DNA of 16,045 bases. Origin: an uncultured Actinomycetes bacterium (GTDB lineage Bacteria; Actinomycetota; Actinomycetes; Nanopelagicales; Nanopelagicaceae). The position numbers and the translations under genes were made by a program. The stretch covers positions 1 through 16,045 of the forward strand of contig CAJAFH010000253.1 of assembly GCA_903939005.1 (NCBI GenBank), written 5' to 3'. The first letter of the stretch is position 1. Every line of letters begins with the position of its first letter. The notes under the pieces are model-generated. The model was not told the DNA's origin, did no database searches, and saw only the letters and a program-made list of their open reading frames with translations. Shown here piece by piece: positions 6,412-10,626 of the stretch.

Positions 6412-6957
6412 TTGAATACCAGGGGCACAAACCAGATTGCGCGCCAAATCCACGATGGAATAGCGCAAGATTTGGTTGCCCTGGGTTACTCACTTGACCA
6501 ATCTCTAGGTGCACCTGAGTTACCAACTTCTACCCGCGCTGAACTGCGGACCCTTAGGTTTGAAGTTACTGGTCTAATTGAAAAAGTTCGTCGCGAGATC
6601 CTAAATCTACGTAGCACTTCACCTGACTTGGGTGAACTAGCTGTCGCGATCTGCGGCGATCGTCTCGGCAAAGTCGATCTGACCATCCCCCTTGATCAAG
6701 TACTTAGCCCCATAGCCATTGAACTCTTGCGTAATGCAGCTGAGCACTCTGGGGCTAGCGTGATTAATCTGCACACTTATAGCGACGATGCTCTTACTGT
6801 TATCGAAGTTAGCGATAACGGGATTGGCGGTGTTGAAATGAAAGCTGATCGATTTGGCTTAGTTGGTATTTCCGAGGCGGTAGCTGAACTATCTGGAAAA
6901 ATTGAATTCATAAACCTCACACCCGGTCTCTTGATTCGAGTATCGATTCCCAGTTGA
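6412..6957 (+). CDS. Sensorless NarL-type histidine kinase (HisKA_3 plus HATPase)
   Basis: A 181-residue kinase made only of catalytic parts. The dimerisation/phosphoacceptor block begins almost at the first residue, IARQIHDGIAQD (9-20, phosphoacceptor H14). The ATP-binding domain has an N box ELLRNAAEH (104-112, N108), a G1 box VSDNGIGG (133-140) and a G2 region FGLVGISE (148-155). No transmembrane segment, PAS, GAF or HAMP region fits before H14, so the protein is cytoplasmic and must take its signal from another partner. The TTG at 6412 is the only standard start before H14; it directly follows the ligase TAA (TAATTG), in the same frame, with no good Shine-Dalgarno sequence. The end overlaps the regulator gene by 4 nt (TTGA). 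The partner regulator is clear; the signal is not. Confidence 0.85.
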   Translation: MNTRGTNQIARQIHDGIAQDLVALGYSLDQSLGAPELPTSTRAELRTLRFEVTGLIEKVRREILNLRSTSPDLGELAVAICGDRLGKVDLTIPLDQVLSPIAIELLRNAAEHSGASVINLHTYSDDALTVIEVSDNGIGGVEMKADRFGLVGISEAVAELSGKIEFINLTPGLLIRVSIPS

Positions 6958-7571
6958 ACCGCCGAGTTCTAATCGTTGATGATCATCCGATAGTTCGCGC
7001 TGGGTTGGAGCAAGCACTGGTTAAGGCCAATTTCACAATCTGTGCCGTTGCCGCCAGCAAGAACGAAGCAATAGCGCAGATTGCACGAACAAACCCAAAC
7101 CTAATTTTGCTGGACCTAAATCTTCCTGATGGCAGTGGGTTCGAAGTGGCTAACTGGGCTAGAGGGATTTCCGATGAAATTGGAATTGTAATTCTTACCC
7201 TTAACGACGCACCTGAATTATTGCTTACCGCTCTTTCGGCCCAAGTAAGTGGCTTTGTATTAAAAAGTGCGCCAATATCAGAAGTCATCGCAACATTAGA
7301 ACGCGCTCTGATTACGCCGCTGAGTTTTACCGCATCTGGTTTACAAAAAGCGCTCAAAGCAAAAGAGCGGTTACCGAGTTTGAGTTCGAGAGAATTAGAG
7401 GTTCTAACAATTTTGGCCACGGGTAAAAGCACCAAAGAAATAGCTCGTCAACTTTATTTGGGTGAGCCAACTATCAAAACGCACTTAGCAAGTATCTATC
7501 GCAAACTTGAGGTCAGTAATCGAATCTCAGCAGTTGCAGTTGCCCGTGATAATTCTTGGTTAGGCGAGTAA
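6954..7571 (+). CDS. NarL/LuxR-family response regulator
   Basis: A 205-residue regulator. The receiver domain (about 1-120) has the acidic pair D9/D10 in VDDH, phosphoacceptor D54 in LLDLNLPDG, T82 in ILTLND and K104 in VLKSA, all in the expected order. After a short linker, the C-terminal GerE helix-turn-helix begins at LSSRELEVL (143-151) and continues through STKEIARQL and TIKTHLASIYRKL. It should be phosphorylated by the adjoining kinase and bind DNA as a dimer. The start is TTG inside TTGA, overlapping the kinase stop, so translation is coupled. The 3' end overlaps the convergent pimB gene by 12 nt. The regulated genes cannot be read from the sequence; the envelope and fatty-acid genes nearby are a reasonable guess. 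Confidence 0.9.
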   Translation: MNRRVLIVDDHPIVRAGLEQALVKANFTICAVAASKNEAIAQIARTNPNLILLDLNLPDGSGFEVANWARGISDEIGIVILTLNDAPELLLTALSAQVSGFVLKSAPISEVIATLERALITPLSFTASGLQKALKAKERLPSLSSRELEVLTILATGKSTKEIARQLYLGEPTIKTHLASIYRKLEVSNRISAVAVARDNSWLGE

Positions 7572-8699
7572 CGCCGCGTATCTAGTAGCCCAAATTTCCC
7601 AGCGCCAGTTTTCAATAATCCAAGCTCTTCCATTTGCACCCATGAGTGCGCAGAGTTCTGGATTATTTAGTAATTCAATACAGGCATCAGCAATCTCAGA
7701 AGGGTTCGTGCCATCAACAACTACGCCGGTTTCGCCAACTAGAACTGCATCGGGTGCTCCCCCAGATTTTCCGCCTACTACCGGTAACCCACACGCGCTA
7801 GCTTCGAGATAGACAATGCCTAATCCCTCTACTTCTAGCCCGAAGAAACGTGAACGCGAAGGCATTGCAAAGATATCTCCCAAGCAGATGTATTTAGGGA
7901 GTTCGGCGTAGTTAATCCGGCCAATAAATGTTACGCAATCACTAACTTTGAGTTTGAGAGCTAATTTTTCTAGATAATCCTGGTGCGGACCAACCCCAAC
8001 TAAAACTAGATGCACATTAGGCACCGCGGATTTGATTGCAGGTAGCGCTGCAATTAACTTGTCCTGCCCCTTGCGATGAACTAACCGACCAACGCTGATA
8101 ATTACCGACTTATCAGTTAGTCCTAGTTCGGCTCGCAACTTACTAGAATCAGTAGGAATGAAATGGTCAACATCAATGCCGGGTGCAATCTGCACCAACT
8201 TGCTTGCATCGGCTTTGCTTAGTGCCTTGCTGATCTCACCTCTGGTGTAATCGCCCAAATATGTAATCGCATCAATATTTTTACTCATATACCTAATCGC
8301 AAAAGTGAACGGTGGAACTTTGGCCCACCAAACTTCGTGGCCATGTGTAAGCGCCACAATCTTTTGTGCGCCCGCACGACGCATTGCTCGAGCCATAATT
8401 GCAAGTGGTGCGGCGGCACCAAATGTCACTTTCGATAAATTTCGATCGTTAATTATTTTTTGACAAGTTTTGACAACACGAGGAGTTGGCAGCAGGATTT
8501 TGCTGCGATCACGAATAACTTCAACGCCGTAATTGCGTAGCCATTCTGCATCGAAAGCTTGTGCGTTAGTTTGAGCGCTGGTGTAAACAATGACCGAACC
8601 TTTGGGCAAGCGTTCAATTAATCCGTGTACAAAAGTTTCAATCCCCCCAGCTCTGGGGCCAAAGTCATTAGTTATAAAAAGAGTCGTTGCAACCATCAC
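7560..8699 (-). CDS. pimB: PimB'-like GDP-mannose:phosphatidylinositol mannoside alpha-mannosyltransferase
   Basis: A 379-residue GT-B glycosyltransferase of family GT4. It has the N-terminal loop FGPRAGGIE (13-21), HGHE (119-122), the donor-site residues R205 and K210 in GRLVHRKG, and the EX7E motif E291-E299 in VEGLGIVYLEA followed by GGKSGGAPDAV (309-319). The segment MPSRSRFFGLEVEGLGIV closely resembles the PimB' signature. In mycobacteria and corynebacteria PimB' adds the second mannose to phosphatidylinositol mannoside on the cytoplasmic face of the membrane. The start is GTG at 8699, which shares one base with the TAG of the NlpC gene; ATG at 8696 is an equal alternative. No Shine-Dalgarno sequence is seen, so translation probably depends on the upstream gene. 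Whether this organism makes PIMs is inferred. Confidence 0.85.
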   Translation of the reverse strand: MMVATTLFITNDFGPRAGGIETFVHGLIERLPKGSVIVYTSAQTNAQAFDAEWLRNYGVEVIRDRSKILLPTPRVVKTCQKIINDRNLSKVTFGAAAPLAIMARAMRRAGAQKIVALTHGHEVWWAKVPPFTFAIRYMSKNIDAITYLGDYTRGEISKALSKADASKLVQIAPGIDVDHFIPTDSSKLRAELGLTDKSVIISVGRLVHRKGQDKLIAALPAIKSAVPNVHLVLVGVGPHQDYLEKLALKLKVSDCVTFIGRINYAELPKYICLGDIFAMPSRSRFFGLEVEGLGIVYLEASACGLPVVGGKSGGAPDAVLVGETGVVVDGTNPSEIADACIELLNNPELCALMGANGRAWIIENWRWEIWATRYAALLA

Positions 8700-9721
8700 T
8701 AGAACCGGCGAACGGCAACGAGCGGTTTGCGACCTAGCGCCGTAGAAGCGTTAGATACAACTTTCACACGTGAACCAGAACGTGGGGCGTGAACCATCTT
8801 GCCGCCACCTAAGTAAATTGCCACATGTGAAATAGGCCGCCCATAGAAGAGTAAATCGCCGGGCTTTGCCGACTTATACGAGACTGAGCGGCCATAACGC
8901 GATTGCGCCCTAGATGAATGTGGCAGTGATACTCCGGCCGACTGATAGGCACGCATGGTTAGGCCCGAGCAATCCCAGGTTACGGTGCCTGCAGAGCCAA
9001 AGACATATCGATCACCGATCTGCTTTAGCGCATACTTAATCGCTATTCCAGCGCGACCTGAAATCGCACCCGCACTGCTTGCATATGCTTTAGAAGAAGC
9101 TTGGTCGGCATCCTCTTCAGCTGCCTTCAGAGCAGCCAAACGAGCTCGGTCTTCCTTCTTTAATTTCGCTAATATTTTTTCGGCAGCCGCTAATTTAGAT
9201 TTTGCTTGTGCCGACTTCTGAGCAAACCTTTTCTGCGCCGCTTGTACAAGTGCCAGCTTGTCATCAACCGTAAGCTTTGTTGCATTAAGGCGTTGTTCTG
9301 CCGCTTCGAATTTCCTTAATTGAGAACTCTTTGCTCGAGTGATTGACTCCAATGAACCTGCCGAACTTAAATAAAGTTCTGGGTTAGCCGAAAAAAGAAG
9401 TTCTAAGCCTTGGCTCAATCCCCCGGCTTTGTATTGTTCAATTGCAATTGTGCCTAATGATTTCTTAAGTGCATCCACTGTTGCGCCTTGCGCAGCAGCC
9501 TCTTGCTTAAGTCCATTTAGCGTTTTGGTTAAAGTCGCTAGTTGAACCTTTGCCGCCTGTGCGCCTTCGGCAGCGGCAGTTGCATCTTCTTCAAGTTGGC
9601 GAACTTGGGCTTGAATTTGAGCCAGGGTTGGAGCAGCTTGAGCAATGGGTGCGATTAATGCGCTAGCCATAGTTACAGCCACGCCAATTGCGAGCGCGCT
9701 TCGTAAACCTATGCGTGACAT
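8699..9721 (-). CDS. Secreted coiled-coil NlpC/P60 peptidoglycan hydrolase
   Basis: A 340-residue secreted hydrolase expected to cut peptide stems of peptidoglycan. A signal peptide covers 1-29, with basic SRIGLR, a hydrophobic core and AQA before the cut. Residues 31 to about 210 are Ala-, Lys- and Gln-rich with heptad character, the coiled-coil regulatory region seen in actinobacterial RipA/RpfB-partner type enzymes. The C-terminal NlpC/P60 domain (about 222-340) has catalytic C251 in WDCSGL, H299 in SHVAIYL and H311 in HAPRSG. The ATG at 9721 is preferred over one at 9754 because a promoter (TTGAGT, 18 nt, TAGCCT) ends 7 nt before it and the signal peptide then starts properly. The stop shares one base with the pimB start, so the two envelope genes form an operon. 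Confidence 0.9.
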   Translation of the reverse strand: MSRIGLRSALAIGVAVTMASALIAPIAQAAPTLAQIQAQVRQLEEDATAAAEGAQAAKVQLATLTKTLNGLKQEAAAQGATVDALKKSLGTIAIEQYKAGGLSQGLELLFSANPELYLSSAGSLESITRAKSSQLRKFEAAEQRLNATKLTVDDKLALVQAAQKRFAQKSAQAKSKLAAAEKILAKLKKEDRARLAALKAAEEDADQASSKAYASSAGAISGRAGIAIKYALKQIGDRYVFGSAGTVTWDCSGLTMRAYQSAGVSLPHSSRAQSRYGRSVSYKSAKPGDLLFYGRPISHVAIYLGGGKMVHAPRSGSRVKVVSNASTALGRKPLVAVRRF

Positions 9722-9728
9722 GGAGAAG

Positions 9729-9758
9729 AGGCTATCGGTGGGTACTTGCGCCACTCAA
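9729..9758 (-). promoter_or_regulatory. Leaderless promoter of the NlpC/P60-pimB operon
   Basis: On minus: -35 TTGAGT (9753-9758), an 18-nt spacer, -10 TAGCCT (9729-9734), then 7 nt to the ATG at 9721. This is one of the two promoters in the window with both elements at good spacing before a leaderless start. It favours the 9721 start over the longer 9754 frame. Confidence 0.6.
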
Positions 9759-9801: not shown

Positions 9802-9827
9802 GAATTCGCCCACAAATCGGCGAATTC
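9802..9827 (-). terminator. Hairpin A, terminator-like, after the CxxC gene
   Basis: GAATTCGCC (9802-9810) and GGCGAATTC (9819-9827) form a perfect 9-bp stem with an 8-nt loop. It begins 18 nt beyond the stop codon of the small minus-strand gene. No U-tract follows, but U-poor terminators are accepted in Actinobacteria. It could instead be an operator. Confidence 0.4.
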
Positions 9828-9845: not shown

Positions 9846-10019
9846 TTAGGCGAGAAAACGAAGTGGCGGAACGATCCCTCGAGATGAGAGAAGTTGGAGA
9901 GCATCCGCAGTTTGGTTACTTAAATCCACCGAGTCTTCAGCTTTGTTGAGAAAGAATGAAACAACGCAATCTTTACAAGCCAAATCTCGCAGGGAACAAG
10001 AATCGCAGTCAATGATCAT
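9846..10019 (-). CDS. Small conserved-type CxxC/CxxC protein (57 aa)
   Basis: A 57-residue protein beginning MIIDCDSCSLRDLACKDC, with C5-x2-C8 and C15-x2-C18, and ending IVPPLRFLA before a TAA. The four closely spaced cysteines suggest a metal (Zn or Fe-S) site; the remainder looks like one or two helices. An in-frame TAG lies just upstream of the ATG, so this is the only possible ATG start, and TACTCT plus 7 nt precedes it as a leaderless promoter. From memory, small proteins with a DC..C..RD.AC.DCVV start and a GLVPPLR end are common in Actinobacteria beside NlpC/P60 genes, usually annotated as hypothetical. The gene lies 124 nt upstream of the NlpC gene on the same strand. Function is unknown; it is shorter than 60 residues and easily missed. 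Confidence 0.82.
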   Translation of the reverse strand: MIIDCDSCSLRDLACKDCVVSFFLNKAEDSVDLSNQTADALQLLSSRGIVPPLRFLA

Positions 10020-10026
10020 GTTCTAA

Positions 10027-10032
10027 AGAGTA
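10027..10032 (-). promoter_or_regulatory. Leaderless promoter -10 box for the CxxC protein
   Basis: TACTCT on minus, then 7 nt (TTAGAAC), then the ATG at 10019. No good -35 match is visible. The same TANNNT-N7-ATG arrangement precedes the SRPBCC and NlpC genes. The 91 nt between this ATG and the divergent reductase start at 10111 hold no other feature that I could see. Confidence 0.55.
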
Positions 10033-10110
10033 AAGGCCGCCACTGACATTGATTTTGATAAACCACAAAAGATTTAAGGCCAGACACTCAAGAATCTACG
10101 CCCTAAACCG

Positions 10111-10626
10111 ATGGCAACCCCCTACCTTTTCTCCGTGCCTGTTATCGCCTCATTAGTCGTTGGTTCCGATGGATCCACTAGCAAAGATGGCCGTTCGGCT
10201 GGAGTTTCTAGCGCCGCTGATCGCCGTGCTTTCTTAGCTCGCCGCCGAACTGCAGACGCGCTGCTAATTGGTGGCAATACCGCTCGTAATGAGCCGTATC
10301 AAAAGACGCCTGTACCAGTTGTGGTTGTTTCTAAATCAATGCTAAACCCGCTTTCAAATAATCGCTTAGCCCATTGGTGGAATTGCGAGCCAACCGAAGC
10401 GTTAGCACGAGCCCAACGCCTATTTGGCGAAACGATTGTGATCGAATCTGGCGTTTCGATAATCGAAGAGTTAATTGCAGCGAAGAAAATTGATCGCCTC
10501 GAGTTAAGCGTTACCTCAGTTACTGCTGGCGAAGATCAAGTTGACTTTAAAAAGTTACTGAGCAAATTTTCGAATGTAACTGAACGAGTTGAAGAAGATA
10601 CAACTTTTTATACTGCAACAAATTAG
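10111..10626 (+). CDS. RibD C-terminal-like (dihydrofolate reductase fold) reductase
   Basis: A 171-residue protein of the RibD_C/DHFR-fold family, whose members reduce a pyrimidine or related substrate with NADPH. Visible are the first strand and substrate loop VIASLVVGSDGSTS (11-24), the helix AADRRAFLARRRTADALLIGG (35-55) that leads into the nucleotide-binding NTARNEPY, and the later ESGVSIIEELI (112-122) followed by a LELSVTSVTAGED strand. It lacks the N-terminal deaminase domain of full RibD and is shorter than usual for a stand-alone reductase (often about 200-250), so either a compact enzyme or a paralog outside riboflavin synthesis is possible. The ATG has no Shine-Dalgarno sequence and only an imperfect -10 (TACGCC at 10097-10102). 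It converges on the transporter gene, 2 nt away. Confidence 0.75.
   Translation: MATPYLFSVPVIASLVVGSDGSTSKDGRSAGVSSAADRRAFLARRRTADALLIGGNTARNEPYQKTPVPVVVVSKSMLNPLSNNRLAHWWNCEPTEALARAQRLFGETIVIESGVSIIEELIAAKKIDRLELSVTSVTAGEDQVDFKKLLSKFSNVTERVEEDTTFYTATN

Follow-up and report, generated by a model that had tools for sequence, protein, structure and literature searches.

The window is the whole stretch of 16,045 nucleotides of DNA that was analysed, and its minus strand carries a small gene of 57 codons whose product, P0001, reads MIIDCDSCSLRDLACKDCVVSFFLNKAEDSVDLSNQTADALQLLSSRGIVPPLRFLA on translation. The original prediction had described this frame as complete, with cysteines at residues 5, 8, 15 and 18, an in-frame stop just before the ATG and a leaderless promoter box, and all of these are present at the locus, which comprises the following features.

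10111..10626, plus strand: divergent gene for a RibD-C-like reductase
10041..10048, minus strand: TGTCAGTG, the -26 element of a RecA-NDp (PafBC-type) promoter
10027..10032, minus strand: TACTCT, the -10 element, 8 nt from the -26 element and ending 7 nt before the ATG (leaderless arrangement)
10023-10025, minus strand: in-frame TAG between the promoter and the ATG of the small gene
9846..10019, minus strand: small gene for a CxxC-x6-CxxC protein, with ATG at 10017-10019 and TAA at 9846-9848
9802..9827, minus strand: perfect 9-bp inverted repeat, GAATTCGCC/GGCGAATTC, lying between the small gene and the NlpC/P60 gene and lacking a T-run
9729..9758, minus strand: separate promoter-like element of the NlpC/P60 gene, TTGAGT-N18-TAGCCT, followed by the ATG at 9721
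8699..9721, minus strand: gene for an NlpC/P60 protein with a signal-peptide-like N-terminus, whose best NCBIfam match is RipC, far below cut-off
7560..8699, minus strand: gene for a GT4 glycosyltransferase, PimB-like by context only and common to many relatives

The in-frame TAG rules out a longer, MSV-type N-terminus here, and the plus strand of 9846..10019 contains three stops in the one frame that was translated. The inverted repeat is possibly where the transcript of the small gene ends. The NlpC/P60 frame had been called from the GTG at 9754 (8699-9754), and its start is most likely the ATG at 9721, which lies 7 nt after a -10-like box of its own. Farther along, positions 6412-7571 encode a short HisKA_3-type kinase with no visible sensor part and then a response-regulator-like frame, for which 22 of 57 long loci also have matches on the opposite strand.

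Relatives of the small protein are widespread in actinobacteria. A search of a 5.8-billion-protein set at E<=0.01 returned 57 homologues. Used singly as the query, the protein found a match in 55 of 100 related genomes (28 of 36 genera). With a 21-row profile, 250 of 394 genomes of the class (95 of 137 genera) gave a match, and with a 106-row profile so did 70 of 296 phylum genomes, 58 of which belong to other classes. Named mycobacterial carriers of relatives are Mycolicibacter sinensis and M. longobardus. Four contigs from metagenome-assembled genomes that carry the small gene (L182; L193; L212, labelled Bifidobacterium breve; and L226, labelled Spirochaetaceae) resemble other actinobacterial lineages, and their organism labels may be wrong. 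Within the window's genus, the single-protein search matched 24 of 60 other genomes. The gene is truly absent in places: none of the eight genomes of family f19 listed in the phylum search (7-10 Mb) has it, and the profile found no match in six single-contig genomes of the window's genus, from which we conclude that the gene is dispensable.

Where the gene is present, its conservation is far above chance. The four cysteines and L44 are invariant in the 106-row alignment, with the four-cysteine pattern in 106 of 106 aligned members, and the loop that separates the CxxC pairs has 6 residues in 103 members and 7 in three; this loop is longer in P0053-P0058. The C-terminal half is conserved too (L..G.VPPLR). 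Substitutions respect the frame, falling mostly at third codon positions (173, 145 and 495 differences at positions 1, 2 and 3 over 26 non-overlapping pairs). Values of dN/dS are 0.027, 0.092 and 0.077 for the three closest sequences, lie between 0 and 0.33 for pairs differing at fewer than one fifth of sites, and have a median of 0.31 and a maximum of 0.91 over 137 pairs. The small gene is under purifying selection.

The family is without a name or function and is undescribed as far as we searched. The window's protein belongs to no Pfam or NCBIfam family. When the 106 members were compared with Pfam, seven families were matched, each weakly and in one or two members, none of them a division inhibitor, and comparison with NCBIfam gave no matches. 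A sequence search of the PDB with the small protein found no relative (best E 0.65). The two CxxC pairs, as found in small zinc-ribbon or knuckle proteins, suggest that the protein may bind metal through its four invariant cysteines; one of the 106 members matches Zn_ribbon_5, weakly (0.0067). An Fe-S cluster of the endonuclease III type was considered and is not favoured, there being one weak match (0.047) and a CxxC loop of mostly 6 residues. No membrane segment is present in the window's protein, whose best Kyte-Doolittle mean over 19 residues is 0.71; a 19-residue mean of 1.6 is reached by 15 of 106 members. In agreement with the view that the family is unstudied, we found no paper describing the small gene in the open-licence full texts searched. 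The gene may well be listed as hypothetical in regulon tables, and the main text of PMC8151990 is without the terms Rv2188 to Rv2191. The protein is nonetheless present in databases, partly as "hypothetical protein" and in many entries with an extended N-terminus (described below), so that the word "overlooked" of the original prediction is only partly true.

The main point, which the original prediction missed, is that the box before the small gene belongs to a RecA-NDp/PafBC-type DNA-damage promoter. Upstream of the small gene the order is TGTCAGTG-GCGGCCTT-TACTCT-TTAGAAC-ATG, which matches the published RecA-NDp (P1) consensus of tTGTCRgtg, 8 nt and TannnT (PMC5656591), and for a transcript beginning at the ATG, TGTCAGTG would be centred near -26. 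RecA-NDp is the promoter through which PafBC activates its targets (PMC6789036), and the helix-turn-helix of PafB contacts the -26 motif as PafBC redirects the housekeeping polymerase (PMC11804915). A scan for a sigma-70 consensus gave no match at the small-gene locus, as expected for a PafBC-type promoter.

This promoter recurs with the family. Of 99 unique small-gene loci (116 found minus duplicates), 84 have the core TGTCRG-N10-TANNNT in the 150 nt upstream and 52 have the full form TGTCRGTG-N8-TANNNT there, compared with 12 (core) and 4 (full form) of 1261 control frames, which are the other frames of at least 120 codons in the same loci and are in many cases probably spurious. Mononucleotide shuffles gave a mean of 0.055 loci with the core, and spacers of 5 to 15 nt other than 10 occur in 0 to 4 of the 99 loci. 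All 37 loci of the window's family have the core, as does at least one locus in 23 of the 28 class families sampled, and a looser TGTC-N12-TANNNT is found in 27 of the 28. Fifteen of the 99 loci are without the core; in family f26, two of seven loci have it and the other five keep TGTCGG and not the TA of the -10 element. In a set of named genomes, which partly overlaps the 99 loci, 60 of the 78 loci having 150 nt upstream carry the core (80 loci in all). Outside the class, the strict core occurs within 250 nt in two of 28 loci, and the looser motif in 11 of 28 compared with 0 of 599 control frames.

The position of the box divides the 84 motif-bearing loci almost evenly: it ends 6-9 nt before the start codon in 41, a leaderless arrangement, and lies 17-120 nt upstream of it in the 43 leadered loci. 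Among the 57 database homologues, 37 have an MSV-type N-terminus, that is, ATGTCRGTG read as codons. We read these N-termini as promoter sequence annotated as coding, which would be a recurrent annotation error; for Rv1955, a RecA-NDp motif has been reported within a wrongly annotated N-terminus (PMC2897130). Part of the element is also present in Mycobacterium tuberculosis, where a published cloning primer for Rv2190c, placed about 500 bp upstream, contains TGTCGGTG-CTCGCGAT-TA, i.e. TGTCGGTG-N8-TA (PMC3432046), so that at least the first 18 bases of the promoter element precede ripC in that species. Taken together, the promoter comparisons make it very probable that the small gene is damage-inducible through a PafBC-type promoter, and the best-supported part of our interpretation is that the gene would be a phylum-wide and often leaderless member of the PafBC-type damage regulon. 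It was not reported as a member of that regulon in the open papers searched.

We also followed the motif genome-wide. In the window's genome TGTCRGTG-N7to9-TANNNT occurs four times, compared with once for the reversed-pattern control; the two N8 sites precede the small gene and a gene for DUF6504, after which comes a PHP-domain (DnaE2-like) frame, and the two N7 sites lie inside long frames. A TGTCRGAC variant has 36 sites, compared with 4 for the reversed pattern, in seven genomes that were picked for carrying it at the small gene, so that it precedes the small gene in all seven by choice. Among 30 of these sites that were fetched, six belong to the small gene, one to DUF6504 and seven to repair-type genes from five of the seven genomes (uvrB, sbcD, mgsA/rarA, a radA-like gene, an AP endonuclease gene and, twice, recA), and for 16 the target is a different gene or is unclear. 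In relatives, an element of this kind thus stands before recA, uvrB and a radA-like gene, as in the PafBC regulon. Twelve genomes of the window's family hold 1 to 7 exact TGTCRGTG-N8 sites each, 43 in all compared with 12 for the reversed control, and of 30 that were fetched, seven belong to the small gene and two to DUF6504-like frames. The motif is enriched and is noisy when used alone.

Some of these sites precede other short frames. In the closest relative a 100-aa frame with no Pfam match (L316:1195-1494, minus strand) begins 6 nt after an exact PafBC-type motif, and in another genome of the window's family the same is true of a 115-aa frame (L330:1150-1494, minus strand). In small genomes, exact RecA-NDp motifs lie 6-7 nt before membrane-protein-like frames (L312:654-1493 and L326:684-1493, both minus strand; the former Rce1-like by Pfam) and before a 67-aa cysteine-rich frame (L334:1294-1494, minus strand). 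In two genomes without the small gene, an exact motif lies 24 nt before a 160-aa frame (L314:997-1476, minus strand; L319:1547-2026, plus strand), which we take to resemble CarD.

Of 41 genomes of the family, 39 have adjacent pairs of WYL-domain genes, as expected of PafBC, and the closest relative (G033) is among them; in G403 two WYL frames lie on separate contigs, and in the window's own assembly, which is 74% complete, we saw no adjacent pair and only a 735-codon WYL frame. Loss of PafBC as the cause of loss of the small gene is not supported, as WYL pairs remain. DUF6504, which marks the dnaE2 cassette, occurs in 39 of 41 genomes regardless of whether they have the small gene. The small gene therefore does not track the dnaE2 repair system, and its membership in the dnaE2 mutasome is not supported.

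The original prediction placed the small gene upstream of an NlpC/P60-pimB operon, and the part of this claim that concerns the neighbour stands. Of 57 long class loci, 43 have an NlpC/P60 gene downstream on the same strand, within 0.8 kb in 42 of them, and in 47 of 63 named class loci with enough sequence an NlpC/P60 gene directly follows the small gene; GT4 is within reach in 32 of the 57 and 38 of the 63. Membership of the small gene in the operon is not shown, the NlpC/P60 gene having its own promoter-like element. There are also loci in which GT4 is next and the stretch contains no NlpC match (e.g. L070, L078, L092, L184, L231, L272 and L275). On the divergent side, the RibD-C-like gene is a neighbour only in the window's family among the 57 long loci (11/57). 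In 27 loci hand-picked from 158 for a long upstream frame, that frame matches a DEDDh-type exonuclease (PF00929) in 19 and GIY-YIG in seven.

Loci of the window's family that are without the small gene bear on whether the damage promoter serves NlpC. We inspected 20 such loci from 26 that were fetched, leaving out L151-L156; absence was judged by the profile, or by the single-protein search for G039, G047 and G054, and for G040, which is among the 20, the profile gave a weak match (E 0.006). NlpC remains in these loci, with the promoter-like element in 19 of 20, and the damage motif is absent from all 20. By the strict pattern, the NlpC element was found in 25 of 43 loci of the family with the small gene, a count that includes repeat fetches of one locus, compared with 19 of the 20 without it. 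A damage promoter serving NlpC is not supported in the window's family, because NlpC has its own element and the loci without the small gene are without the motif.

Outside the class the neighbours are different. None of the 28 out-of-class loci has an NlpC match. Thirteen of them have GT4 downstream on the same strand and 12 have a QueG-like frame there, in 11 cases next to the small gene, and SepH (DUF3071, PF11268), which regulates FtsZ directly (PMC7968930), is the next gene in eight. Because the "longest ORF" downstream is often spurious in GC-rich loci, downstream frames were checked by protein searches. Among class members, SepH directly follows the small gene in L158 and L165, and in L060 and L099 it comes right after NlpC, which places it near the small gene in 4 of about 179 loci (next in 2), in locus sets that overlap. 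Pfam confirms SepH in 7 of 12 loci (L274, L256, L253, L060, L099, L158 and L165). In the window SepH is not adjacent to the small gene, and each of the 41 family genomes, the window's included, encodes it. Longer clusters have the orders small gene, NlpC, SepH, GT4 (L060), small gene, NlpC, SepH (L099) and small gene, SepH, QueG-like, GT4 (L254), which are possibly traces of an ancestral order.

Several readings of the small protein must be weighed. In one, the protein is a DNA-repair accessory that would aid repair directly by attaching to DNA or to a nuclease (the divergent DEDDh exonuclease or GIY-YIG protein, for instance) and would have no role in division. The damage-type promoter, the nuclease frames upstream in the hand-picked loci and the repair genes among other bearers of the motif are all consistent with this, but the divergent neighbour in the window's family is RibD instead and the dnaE2-cassette marker persists regardless of the small gene, and we consider a repair accessory unlikely. 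The invariant cysteines could also make the protein a sensor of metal or thiol redox state, in which a CxxC pair would sense oxidants or zinc during damage and adjust envelope enzymes or buffer zinc. Oxidative-stress genes are included in the PafBC regulon (PMC8223512), which fits such a sensor; however, the holding of metal would not by itself explain the conserved C-terminal half, and we regard this role as quite unlikely.

The original prediction proposed a metal-binding regulator or assembly factor of the envelope, which as a dedicated factor for the adjoining NlpC/P60 hydrolase would act independently of DNA damage. The frequency of NlpC downstream in the class speaks for it, and the envelope idea is partly supported, yet a factor specific to NlpC is hard to reconcile with the damage-type promoter, with an NlpC gene that has its own promoter-like element and persists alone, and with the class loci in which GT4 is next and all 28 out-of-class loci, where no NlpC match was found; we judge it very unlikely. 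Lastly, the frame could be a leaderless, cysteine-responsive leader peptide, in which translation and not the product controls the downstream genes. It is leaderless in about half of the motif-bearing loci and precedes other genes on its strand, and small, leaderless, cysteine-containing upstream ORFs are known ahead of other genes in mycobacteria (PMC4633059). Those ORFs, however, lie at cysA2, Rv0485 and nirA, are proposed to act in cis and, at cysA2, have their cysteines clustered at the C-terminus (PMC4633059), whereas the small protein has no run of cysteines but the spacing C-x2-C-x6-C-x2-C, both of its halves are conserved and close pairs have low dN/dS, the gene that follows differs between loci (NlpC, GT4, QueG-like, SepH), and the remaining motif-bearing loci are leadered. 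An attenuator is highly improbable.

We favour, with modest confidence, the reading that the small gene encodes a PafBC-induced metal protein acting on division or envelope growth. DNA damage would produce single-stranded DNA, PafBC would bind it and redirect RNA polymerase to the -26/-10 element at 10027-10048, and a leaderless mRNA would start at the ATG of the small gene. The 57-residue protein would fold round a metal held by its four cysteines and act on the machinery of division or envelope growth, either SepH-FtsZ or an FtsEX-RipC-type hydrolase, such that division would be held until repair. Sequence comparison establishes the gene and its selection, the promoter motif with its conservation, the occurrence of that motif before repair genes, and the neighbours linked to division and envelope. 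That the gene is transcribed, that it depends on PafBC in this organism, that its product binds metal and that division is the target are all predictions. The division or envelope target is a tentative guess from neighbourhood, proposed because two unrelated neighbours are linked to division (SepH and the RipC-like NlpC) and because of a parallel in Caulobacter; against it, QueG-like and GT4 neighbours occur at least as often.

In that parallel, the WYL regulator DriD drives the small division inhibitor DidA after damage, independently of SOS (PMC4211646). The likeness to our proposal would lie in the type of regulator, the very small protein and the neighbours that in some loci point to division. 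In contrast, DidA is a small transmembrane inhibitor that binds FtsN (PMC4211646), and the window's protein has four cysteines and is without a membrane segment, which also sets it apart from SidA. Delaying division during repair, as ChiZ (Rv2719c), DivS, SulA and YneA do (PMC3989709), is only proposed for the small protein, and DivS, SulA and YneA are described as SOS-linked and ChiZ and YneA as carrying a LysM domain (PMC3989709). By Pfam and NCBIfam, the small protein has no family match to the damage-induced division inhibitors SulA, SidA, DidA, YneA, ChiZ and DivS. SepH is a possible target that is linked to the small gene by neighbourhood only, and its protein family is unlike that of the small protein. 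RipC (Rv2190c) is an FtsEX-dependent NlpC/P60 hydrolase (PMC12067865) and is, below cut-off, the best NCBIfam match of the window's NlpC/P60 neighbour. In L265-L267 the gene order is small gene, NlpC, GT4, whereas the available text of PMC12067865 names a hypothetical protein and pimB near ripC and no small gene upstream. The fullest form of the proposal, a phylum-wide, SOS-independent damage checkpoint in which PafBC, on sensing single-stranded DNA, would induce a tiny leaderless metal protein that acts on SepH-FtsZ (and, where linked, on FtsEX-RipC) and halts division until repair, as a counterpart of DriD-DidA with an unrelated, soluble effector, is rather doubtful.

PafBC is reported to raise the majority of damage-induced genes in mycobacteria (PMC6789036). 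Its effectors are mostly thought of as repair enzymes, and the small family is often found beside division or envelope genes. The small gene has been retained in many genomes only about 1.3 Mb in size, in which promoters of this kind are few, and its product is a testable candidate for tying repair to division in actinobacteria.
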